A stretch of DNA of 64,000 nucleotides from Sphingobium sp. Cam5-1 (GTDB taxonomy: Bacteria; Pseudomonadota; Alphaproteobacteria; Sphingomonadales; Sphingomonadaceae). Under the pieces are notes generated by a model, which saw only the letters and a program-made list of their open reading frames with translations, did no database searches and was not told the origin of the DNA. Positions 42,983 through 50,048 of the stretch are shown here, piece after piece (positions within the stretch are counted from its first letter, which is position 1; each line of letters opens with the position of its first letter). The position numbers and the translations under genes were made by a program. Where the stretch lies: positions 1,116,001 through 1,180,000 of the forward strand of contig NZ_CP065138.1 in NCBI RefSeq assembly GCF_015693305.1, in the 5' to 3' direction.

Positions 42983-43666
42983 ATGGGCATGGCGCGATTG
43001 ATCCGGAATGTAGCGAAAGCGGCGGGGCCGAAGCTGATCATAGGCGGCGTGCTTGGCGCTGCCGGTTTGCTGGTGAGTGTTTATGTGGATCGCGGGCGCG
43101 ATCTTGAGGCCTCGCCGCATAAGGCCGCCTCGCCTGAAAGCGCTCCTGCCAAGGCACTGATCGAGCGAAGCCGGTCACAGCCACTGCCCGTCAGTCCGCA
43201 TGCACTGGTGGTCAAAAGCGTGCTGCCGATCGAGGGGCCGTTCCGCCATGGCGACTATGTCTGGGATGAGAGCCAAGCGCCTGCGACGGGTCCGGTCATC
43301 ATCACGGTGGACCTGAAAGCTCAGACGCTGTCAGCTTTTCGCGCTGGCCATGAAATCGGTGCGGCGGTGATCCTCTATGGCGCCGATGACAAGCCCAGCC
43401 CCTTGGGCGCCTTCCCCATTACGCAGAAGGACGCGGACCATGTGTCCAACCTTTATGATGCGCCGATGCCCTACATGCTGCGACTGACGAATGATGGCGT
43501 GGCGATCCATGGCAGCGACGTCAAATGGGGCAGCGCCACCCACGGTTGCATCGGCGTACCGACCGCCTTCGCGCGCAAGCTGTTCGCGGCGGTGAAGCTG
43601 GGGGACCTGGTGATCATCACGCAGGGCAAAATGCTGGACACCAGCCAGGTCCGAGACGCCGGCTGA
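42983..43666 (+). CDS. YkuD-type L,D-transpeptidase family protein
   Basis: A 227-residue protein with an N-terminal membrane anchor (IIGGVLGAAGLLVSVYV, residues 19-35), a variable linker and a YkuD domain near residues 105-215. The catalytic motif reads IHGSDVKWGSATHGCIGVP, with His and Cys in place; the Arg that often follows (HGCVR) is replaced by Gly, as I recall in other sphingomonad members. Such enzymes cross-link peptidoglycan or attach proteins to it in the periplasm. The start at 42983 or 42989 cannot be decided. It follows maeB by 24 bases. Confidence 0.88.
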   Translation: MGMARLIRNVAKAAGPKLIIGGVLGAAGLLVSVYVDRGRDLEASPHKAASPESAPAKALIERSRSQPLPVSPHALVVKSVLPIEGPFRHGDYVWDESQAPATGPVIITVDLKAQTLSAFRAGHEIGAAVILYGADDKPSPLGAFPITQKDADHVSNLYDAPMPYMLRLTNDGVAIHGSDVKWGSATHGCIGVPTAFARKLFAAVKLGDLVIITQGKMLDTSQVRDAG

Positions 43667-43672
43667 ACTGCG

Positions 43673-44209
43673 TCAATCCTGTTCGCAAAGCGGATTGCCA
43701 TCGTGCCCGGTGGCGCGCAGCGCAGCGCTGGCATCGCTCGATGCGCGGGGGAAGCTGACGCCTTCGAGTGAGCCTCGTCCTTCGCAAAGATCAGCGCACT
43801 TCAGGTCGAGAACACCGGGGAAGGCGATCTGATCGCCATCATATGGGGCGACGATAATGCAACCCCCGGCCCGATCGAAGCTGAGTATCAGCTTGTCTCC
43901 GGCTCGCTTTGCGGAACCCCGACCCCAACAGCGTTGATCCTCGCCGAAAATGGCTTCAGCGCCGAAGCGGAAATCGCCGGATCGGCCGGGGATGATGCAC
44001 AGGCTGTCGCTGCCCGCCTCATGACGCCGATGGAAAAGTCCGACGGGAGACGATCTGGAGGTATCTGCGATGACGCCGCTTTCAATGGCCGCGCGTTCCA
44101 GCCCGGACGTCGAGGCGGTATTGCCTGCCGAACTCGCGGAGCCCCCGCCGTCCCCCTGGCACCCGACCAGTAGCGGCAGAATGACGAGGCTATTCCACCG
44201 TATCGACAG
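43673..44209 (-). CDS. Putative lipoprotein read from a CTG codon
   Basis: A continuous 178-codon frame with a convincing lipoprotein signal: [16 protein letters not shown], where Cys17 follows the lipobox LVG. The mature part is Gly/Ser-rich, then a folded domain with regularly spaced cysteines ([38 protein letters not shown]). I recall similar conserved small lipoproteins beside hisI in sphingomonads. The frame contains no ATG, GTG or TTG after its upstream TGA at 44213-44215. The CTG at 44209 lies seven bases after GGAAGGA, an excellent ribosome site, so I propose a CTG start. It overlaps the 3' end of hisI by 20 bases. Confidence 0.7.
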
Positions 44210-44591
44210 CAGTCAGTCCTTCCGGGCCTACGCGGCGAAAGAAGCAGGATCGCGCGCCTGTGTGGCATGTCGGACCTGCCGGAACCGCTTTCACCCAAAC
44301 CGCGTCCTGGTCGCAATCGATCCGGATGTCGCGCACCTCCAGCATGTGGCCCGACGTCTCGCCCTTTTTCCATAGCGACTGGCGGCTGCGCGACCAGAAA
44401 TGCGCCAATCCGGTTTCCACGGTCAGCGCCAGCGCTTCCGCATTCATATGGGCGACCATCAGCACTTCACCGCTGCCAGCATCAGTTACGACCGCTGTGA
44501 TCAGTCCGTCACGATCATATTTGGGATTGAGGGTCAGGCCCTTGTCACGCGCATCGTCCATAGTCGGGCTATAGTCCGGTGGAGGGCTCAT
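44190..44591 (-). CDS. hisI: Phosphoribosyl-AMP cyclohydrolase
   Basis: HisI opens the adenine ring of phosphoribosyl-AMP in histidine synthesis. The 133-residue monofunctional enzyme has [16 protein letters not shown] residues ([13 protein letters not shown]), [17 protein letters not shown] and the metal-binding region [11 protein letters not shown] plus [12 protein letters not shown], all diagnostic. No HisE domain is fused. The start could be 44591 or the in-frame ATG at 44561; neither has a good ribosome site. A lipoprotein frame begins inside its last codons. The tRNA-His gene lies 33 bases upstream on the same strand. Confidence 0.95.
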
Positions 44592-48257: not shown

Positions 48258-49858
48258 CGCTCTGCGCTCCATGCTTCGGTCCGATCAAGATCGGCTTCGG
48301 GGAAGGCCGCAAGCACGGCCTTCACCACCGGGGTATCGAATATTTCGGCGCGCTCTTGCGCCTGACTTGCCTGCTGCTGCTCCAGCAATGACGGAACGGC
48401 ACTGCCTTCACTGCGCCTTATCTGCCACGAGGAACCCGTCGCCCTCTGCAATTCCACTGCGAGCGTACGGCAGAAATCGCCGTCGGCCCACTCCTGCATT
48501 AGTTGTAATTCCAATTCGGGTGGATCGAACCGGACGATGCGCACGCAATCATGAAGGAAGTCAGCGAGCCGCCCTTTCTTTTGTTCCCAAAGCAGATCGA
48601 CGAGCGCCTTCGCATCACGAGGCAGCGATGCGGTGGGAGCGGCGGCTGAGGCAGGAGCCGAAGCCGTCTGCGCAGCCGGAACGGAGCCTTCGCGCAGGAG
48701 TCGCGCGATCTCGCCGGGGTCGGGCATGGTCGCGGCGTGTATGACGCGTAGCAGCGCCATCTCGCACGATTCGATGGGGAATGCGGCGCCTGCAACCTCA
48801 TCATGGCCCTTGAGCAGCAACTGCCAGAGACGATGAAGCGGCGCGAAGCCGATTTGCGAGGCCCAGCTGGCGAGCGCCTCACGCTCCTCTGCGGACTGGC
48901 CGGGGTTGGCGATATCCCGCCCCGCCTTCGCCAGCGTCACGGCATGCACCAGTTCAAGCAGCCCTCTGACCAGCGACAGGGGCTCGACACCGAGCGCATA
49001 TTGTTCGCGCACCGCAGTCAGCAGCGCGGCGGTATCGCCCTCCAGCAGCAGGCCGAGCAGGCGGCGAACGGCGCCACGATCCGAAAGGCCGAGCATATCG
49101 CGGACCTGAGCGGCTGTGACGAGCGGGGCGCCCTCCCCCATCTCCGCATGGGCAATCGCCTGGTCGAGGATGGAAAGGCCGTCACGAGCGGAACCTTCTG
49201 CTGCCTGGGCGATCAGCGCGAGGGCATCGTCTTCGGCGGCAACCTGCTCCGTCTCGACCACATGGGCAAAGTGGGCCGCGAGCAGTTCAGCGGGAATGCG
49301 GCGCAGGTCGAAGCGCTGGCAACGGGAAAGGACGGTGACGGGGACCTTGTTCACTTCAGTTGTGGCGAACAGGAATTTCACATGCGCTGGCGGCTCTTCG
49401 AGCGTCTTGAGAAGCGCGTTGAACGCGTTCTTCGACAGCATATGGACTTCATCGATGATGTAGATCTTGTAGCGGGCGGAGACTGCGGCATAGCGCACCG
49501 CCTCAATGATCTCGCGCACGTCATCGACGCCGGTGTGGCTGGCGGCGTCCATTTCGACCACGTCGATGTGGCGGCCCTCGGCAATTGCCTGGCAGGGTTC
49601 GCACACGCCGCAGGGGTCGATCGTGGGACCGCCCTGCCCGTCCGGCCCTACGCAGTTCAATGCCTTGGCGATCAGGCGCGCGGTCGATGTTTTCCCGACG
49701 CCTCGCACCCCGGTCATCAGGAATGCGTGGGCCAGCCTGCCGCGACGGATCGCGTTACCCAGCGTCTGGACCATGGCATCCTGCCCGATCAGTTCGCGAA
49801 AGCTGCGCGGCCGGTATTTGCGCGCAAGAACGCGATAGGGCTGAGATGAATCGGACAT
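48254..49858 (-). CDS. dnaX: DNA polymerase III subunit gamma/tau
   Basis: DnaX is the ATPase of the clamp loader. The 534-residue protein starts with RVLARKYRPRSFRELIGQD, has the Walker A MTGVRGVGKTSTARL, zinc-binding cysteines (ALNC; DPCGVCEPC), the Walker B IYIIDEVHML and sensor motif LSRCQRFDLRR. The C-terminal third is Ala-rich and ends in a tau-like domain. The length is at the short end for alphaproteobacterial tau. No obvious frameshift slippery site was seen. ybaB is coupled downstream. Confidence 0.97.
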   Translation of the reverse strand: MSDSSQPYRVLARKYRPRSFRELIGQDAMVQTLGNAIRRGRLAHAFLMTGVRGVGKTSTARLIAKALNCVGPDGQGGPTIDPCGVCEPCQAIAEGRHIDVVEMDAASHTGVDDVREIIEAVRYAAVSARYKIYIIDEVHMLSKNAFNALLKTLEEPPAHVKFLFATTEVNKVPVTVLSRCQRFDLRRIPAELLAAHFAHVVETEQVAAEDDALALIAQAAEGSARDGLSILDQAIAHAEMGEGAPLVTAAQVRDMLGLSDRGAVRRLLGLLLEGDTAALLTAVREQYALGVEPLSLVRGLLELVHAVTLAKAGRDIANPGQSAEEREALASWASQIGFAPLHRLWQLLLKGHDEVAGAAFPIESCEMALLRVIHAATMPDPGEIARLLREGSVPAAQTASAPASAAAPTASLPRDAKALVDLLWEQKKGRLADFLHDCVRIVRFDPPELELQLMQEWADGDFCRTLAVELQRATGSSWQIRRSEGSAVPSLLEQQQASQAQERAEIFDTPVVKAVLAAFPEADLDRTEAWSAER

Positions 49859-50048
49859 GGTAACAATCTAGCGGCTTGAGGAGCGGCTGTCGAAGCCGGA
49901 AAGCCGAATAAAGGTGGGAGCCGGAACGACCCGCGGCGAAATCGTTGTGGCTGCTTCCGTCAGGACCTGACCAGGTTGGCGACGACCACGTCCGCCCGAC
50001 TCCCGGCGCGGCATATGGCGAAAGGCTGTGGCGATGGCAAGGGCCGGG

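Follow-up and report, generated by a model that had tools for sequence, protein, structure and literature searches.

The window, as we call the whole 64,000-nucleotide stretch of Sphingobium sp. Cam5-1 DNA analysed here, carries on its minus strand hisI (44190..44591), which encodes phosphoribosyl-AMP cyclohydrolase (PF01502, E 2.4e-34; NF000768, 157.1 bits against a cut-off of 126) and is preceded by tRNA-His. The end of hisI runs into a second minus-strand frame, 43673-44212, open from a CTG at 44212 to a stop at 43675-43673 (179 codons, or 178 from a further CTG at 44209). A TGA (44213..44215), also found in Novosphingobium sp. Chol11, closes the frame upstream, and no ATG, GTG or TTG occurs in frame, whether the whole frame or its aligned part is checked. 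Between the TGA at 44213 and the hisI end the two frames overlap by 23 bases. A Shine-Dalgarno-like GGAAGGA (44223-44217), which also spells the hisI codons Pro-Glu-Gly, sits seven bases ahead of the CTG at 44209. The original prediction, a 178-codon lipoprotein gene lacking any standard start codon, had named the TGA, the two CTGs and the spacing of GGAAGGA, all of which the sequence bears out. The convergent neighbour on the plus strand is a YkuD-type L,D-transpeptidase gene (42983-43666), and the two stops are separated by six bases only (43667-43672).

Counted from an ATA at 44203-44201, the start that we favour below, the gene (43673..44203, minus strand) has 176 codons plus the stop. With this ATA read as Met, the translation has the layout of an SPase II-type lipoprotein as judged by eye, that is, a short basic start, a hydrophobic stretch and a lipobox LVGC with its Cys at 44161-44159 (signal peptide and lipobox, 44159..44203). 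The hydrophobic stretch and the Cys are kept in Novosphingobium sp. Chol11 and in the database protein P0002. The mature domain (43676..44158) bears six further cysteines, at 69, 92, 115, 136, 140 and 173 in the numbering from the ATA, which are invariant across an alignment of 46 hand-chosen homologues, and the predicted lipoprotein signal and six spaced cysteines are thereby confirmed. The mature product is probably a small envelope lipoprotein, its lipidation being deduced from the lipobox; that the mature domain is disulphide-stabilised is our own, unproven guess. A Pfam search of the window protein gave zero matches for the mature domain, an NCBIfam search gave one chance-level line only (E 0.2), and a sequence search of the PDB with the family profile gave no match to a solved structure. 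One of the 46 homologues weakly matched DUF7537 (E 0.013).

By protein search, a homologue is present in 85 of 94 genomes of the genus, its own included. Once L031 and L032, second copies of L002 and L030, were dropped, 85 distinct loci were kept, and at 84 of these hisI shares the strand of the lipoprotein gene, the exception (L068) being cut by a contig end. Across the family, 33 of 199 sampled genomes had a match, four of them being genomes of the genus, and hisI was on the same strand in 23 of the 28 loci examined from that sample. Because the frame is found in 85 of 94 genomes and is under strong purifying selection, we conclude from comparative evidence that it is a genuine gene rather than a chance frame.

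Start codons at the end of hisI

We read the start-region DNA of all 85 distinct loci. At 59 of them an in-frame ATG lies exactly 11 bases ahead of the hisI stop, often as ATGCGGCGGACTAG. At the same site the window reads ATACGGTGGAATAG, with ATA at 44203-44201, and so does Novosphingobium sp. Chol11, the nearest relative compared, whose protein is 76% identical and whose site has the same ATA. Before the signal peptide, 80 of the 85 loci have a canonical start (73 identified by script and 7 by eye) and two have none, those of the window's genome and of Novosphingobium sp. Chol11. The other three could not be classed: L068 is truncated at a contig end, and the frames of L028 and L087 are interrupted. 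In these last two, where the interruption reflects either decay or sequence error, the ATG in the hisI overlap is retained and is out of frame with the matched part.

Counted from first base to first base, the hisI stop TAG (44190..44192) falls 11 bases downstream of the ATA, such that the last 14 bases of hisI overlap the lipoprotein gene. An in-frame ATG (59 loci) or ATA (two loci) at this distance occurs at 61 of the 85 distinct loci, revealing a conserved overlap and leaving the predicted translational coupling to hisI plausible. For the window, a start upstream of the TGA was rejected, because a TAG lies five codons further upstream with no canonical start between them.

A tree built on columns after the lipobox only, with 64 rows (47 loci from among the best matches, four distant ones of which three served as outgroup, and 13 selected protein entries), placed the window's genome and Novosphingobium sp. 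Chol11 in one clade of nine sequences (support 95/94) together with the database entries P0002, P0005, P0008, P0009, P0011, P0013 and P0018. None of the nine gives evidence of an ATG at the ancestral site, and their sister clade (100/95) comprises eight sequences, all with Met where the ancestral start lies. Three features call for caution with this tree: no branch separates the outgroup rows from the rest, some of the distant rows have long branches, and the window's row is of unusual letter make-up. Clade membership was taken from the printed tree, since the group table covers only changes between labelled rows. At the site P0002 has Ser-Ile-Arg-Trp, with Ile at the ATA position, and Leu-Leu-Ser-Ile spans the stretch from CTG to ATA. 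ATA was read in the DNA of the window's genome and of Novosphingobium sp. Chol11, and it is suggested for the remaining clade members, which are protein entries. A search for further DNA of the clade found none in viral contigs and one distant match in plasmids.

The same clade is filed in databases under four different starts: at the ATA (176 aa), upstream of it (185 aa), inside the signal peptide (168 aa) and at an internal Met (148 aa). P0008, P0009, P0011, P0013 and P0018 are 148-aa entries that begin at the internal Met, and P0005, the Sphingobium agri entry, has its first residue within the signal peptide. From three of the four filed starts the signal peptide would be missing, shortened or lengthened, an annotation gap in practice. 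P0001, which is listed as encoded by the window, is 176 aa long and has Met at the ATA position, so at least one annotation source seems already to use the ATA start. The expectation that gene finders would miss this gene accordingly holds in part: the gene is handled badly, with four starts for one clade, and it is not always missed, since the 176-aa entry fits the ATA. Three other entries outside the ATA clade, P0042, P0119 and P0121, which are not among the tree rows, are also short (153-154 aa). P0042 and P0119 start at a Met immediately before the conserved domain, the source contig of P0119 being 861 kb long, and P0121 is marked partial; all three may be further start losses or annotation errors.

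Candidate starts and selection after the loss of ATG

The reading that we consider probable is that the lipoprotein is translated by ribosomes that terminate hisI and re-initiate at AUA; we infer translation, the use of AUA, coupling and expression level alike from sequence. ATG would have changed to ATA in the common ancestor of the small clade. Ribosomes ending hisI at the TAG (44192-44190) would then re-initiate with initiator tRNA at the AUA 11 bases upstream, inside the 14-base overlap. Since AUA probably initiates less strongly than AUG, expression of the lipoprotein would be lower, and it would be tied to the translation of hisI and perhaps to IF3. The features expected of a conserved non-canonical start are partly at hand, in that there is no canonical start ahead of the coding region and the ATA is found in two species together with selection on the protein. 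A strong, well-spaced Shine-Dalgarno motif, as in Staphylococcus aureus infC and ccpN, is not among them, as the best site is 12 bases from the ATA. In nine relatives that have ATG, the best Shine-Dalgarno-like motif is likewise 13-14 bases from the start, which is why re-initiation after hisI fits better than direct recruitment. RNA folding at the start gave nothing consistent, with z-scores of 0.72 for the window, -2.23 for Novosphingobium sp. Chol11 and 0.11 for L003, on stretches placed differently around the start.

The serious rival, which we regard as possible though unlikely, is the CUG at 44209 (44207..44209), the start originally predicted. On this account initiation would use GGAAGGA, and, with this CUG already in place, a later loss of the ATG would have been tolerated. 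The best anti-Shine-Dalgarno duplex, formed by GGAAGGAC (GGAAGGA plus the next base, -8.8 kcal/mol), lies 6 bases from this CTG and 12 from the ATA, and it is this better spacing that keeps the CUG in serious contention. Moreover, the CTG is kept in Novosphingobium sp. Chol11, P0002 has Leu-Leu-Ser-Ile at this place, and CTG is already present in the close ATG-bearing relatives L003, L004 and L005. Against it, the aligned start of the relatives falls two codons downstream, on the ATA, which makes the CTG start probably wrong; CTG and GGAAGGA both belong to hisI codons; several relatives that have the ATG carry the CTG too (L013, L014 and L017 in addition to the three just named); many relatives with ATG have GCG, GGG, CGG, CCG or another codon in place of CTG; and the infC genes described below suggest that AUA initiation occurs in this lineage. 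Lipoprotein signal peptides are removed ahead of the lipobox Cys. Both candidate codons lie in the removed part, so the ATA and CTG starts give an identical mature lipoprotein, whose N-terminus therefore cannot discriminate between them.

Far less probable is a product fused to HisI through frameshifting, or one made from a further internal start without the signal peptide. The 23-base overlap of the frames between the TGA and the hisI end would accommodate the former, and an ATG at codon 31 in Novosphingobium sp. Chol11, together with the related entries that start at an internal Met, would suit the latter. Yet ATG, GTG and TTG are all absent from the interior of the window's frame, and a fusion would bury a signal peptide that is kept in both species.

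Slightly less likely still is a pseudogene in decay, no longer translated after the loss of its start, a reading that the missing canonical start and the truncated versions that are all some databases hold might suggest. Between the window's genome and Novosphingobium sp. Chol11, dN is 0.138 and dS 1.17, giving a dN/dS of 0.118 over 172 codons (the first five left out), and the differences by codon position number 24, 22 and 80. The three pairs among the nearest species with ATG (L003, L004 and L005) gave 0.144, 0.161 and 0.199. The six loci compared, out of 85, form 14 pairs besides that of the two ATA species, and these ranged from 0.097 to 0.260, all such ratios being rough because synonymous sites are near saturation. 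Both ATA-bearing species carry the same change, so their divergence is most simply later than the change from ATG to ATA, and because their dN/dS resembles that of pairs starting with ATG, the substitution pattern indicates that selection persisted after the ATG was lost. We rejected the pseudogene reading on this value of 0.118, which two species without the ATG show at a dS of 1.17, and the lipobox and six cysteines are also retained. The open frame by itself is weak evidence of function, because it stayed open in 16% of runs of a neutral simulation. At the tail of hisI, a synonymous comparison of the last 13 codons found 10 of 12 codons identical between the window's genome and Novosphingobium sp. 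Chol11, a conservation not above that of five control pairs (6/10, 5/11, 4/10, 9/10 and 8/9). Finally, although one G to A change would suffice to create the window's ATA from ATG, a sequencing error is ruled out for practical purposes because Novosphingobium sp. Chol11, another species with a protein 76% identical, carries the same ATA and also has no canonical start ahead of the signal peptide.

Apparent AUA starts in the genus and AUA starts in other bacteria

Comparison of 464 kb of the window's genome (about 11% of it) with 480 kb of the Novosphingobium sp. Chol11 genome kept 305 conserved coding-like frames, of which the lipoprotein frame was the sole one without a canonical codon in the window's genome. 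Each of eight other frames flagged by the survey filter, some of them partial or doubtful, has a canonical codon there. With one such frame in 305, a general shift to unusual starts is ruled out in these 464 kb. The survey would miss cases like infC, because infC has a later in-frame ATG. The corresponding comparison within the 64-kb window kept 68 frames, two of them without a canonical start: the lipoprotein frame and 49758-50048. The latter overlaps the small signal recognition particle RNA (49910-50007, minus strand; RF00169, 50.9 bits), which lies upstream of a 537-codon frame and appears in the comparison as a conserved start-less frame.

The infC gene, encoding IF3, appears from sequence conservation to start at ATA or ATC across the genus. 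Among the 93 genus genomes with infC we examined 51 loci with a search pattern of AT plus any base (L104, on the minus strand of contig C1 of the window's genome near 2840999-2841490, and L135-L184), and in 51 of 51 GGAG is followed after exactly 8 bases by ATA (48 loci) or ATC (3 loci). The infC ATA is followed by CG in both the window's genome and Novosphingobium sp. Chol11, as is the ATA of the lipoprotein gene. A weak infC start might serve IF3 autoregulation. The two genes thus share ATA as an apparent start in the same organisms, and they differ in that infC has GGAG exactly 8 bases upstream and, at most of the loci displayed, ATGs four and five codons further on, its start being deduced from conservation. 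We also entertain, as a tentative idea with the odds against it, that the ATA of the lipoprotein gene is a regulated start kept by selection, in which case both IF3 level and the translation of hisI would govern the lipoprotein, a second AUA gene beside infC.

Conserved AUA starts have been reported in S. aureus for infC and ccpN, and an AUA start for citZ in strains of the NCTC 8325 lineage (PMC13009471). In the reporter results given there, the ccpN and citZ AUA starts reached about 10% of AUG in poor medium, and that of ccpN up to 30% in rich medium; the starts were mapped by ribosome profiling, and extended Shine-Dalgarno motifs are predicted to direct those of infC and ccpN (PMC13009471). 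The S. aureus genes resemble the lipoprotein gene in that AUA replaces AUG and is retained among related strains or species, and also in weak initiation, which is our proposal for the lipoprotein gene. In contrast to infC and ccpN, the lipoprotein gene has its motif 12 bases off and its start, predicted from sequence, inside the overlap with the hisI stop. In Escherichia coli O104:H4, an rpoS mutant in which ATG was changed to ATA made up to five-fold less RpoS (PMC12864459). Here too a single ATG to ATA change goes with reduced expression, measured for rpoS and proposed for the lipoprotein gene, although the rpoS ATA is a laboratory mutation whereas that of the lipoprotein gene has been kept over species. 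The same source quotes another study in which AUA reached no more than 1% of the AUG level in E. coli (PMC12864459), and by analogy this would count against an AUA start.

Overlapping gene pairs with termination-reinitiation are described in PMC6728339 and PMC12548453, the latter also reviewing coupling models for overlapping genes. As in those pairs, the first gene, hisI, has its stop within the start region of the second, an arrangement conserved here over most of the genus, whereas the overlap is of 14 bases rather than a short ATGA or TGATG and the start is non-canonical. A search of the open literature with the wording 'Sphingobium' and 'noncanonical start codon' found no paper with both. 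With sisters that have ATG, a clade with ATA and infC as an apparent second AUA gene, all in one genus, the locus offers a natural test of a lineage moving away from ATG, and it raises the possibility that a weak start codon, lacking a well-placed Shine-Dalgarno motif, is sustained by coupling to the gene upstream. Conserved AUA starts are thus known elsewhere, and the lipoprotein gene is a new case, one in which overlap coupling would replace the well-placed Shine-Dalgarno motif.
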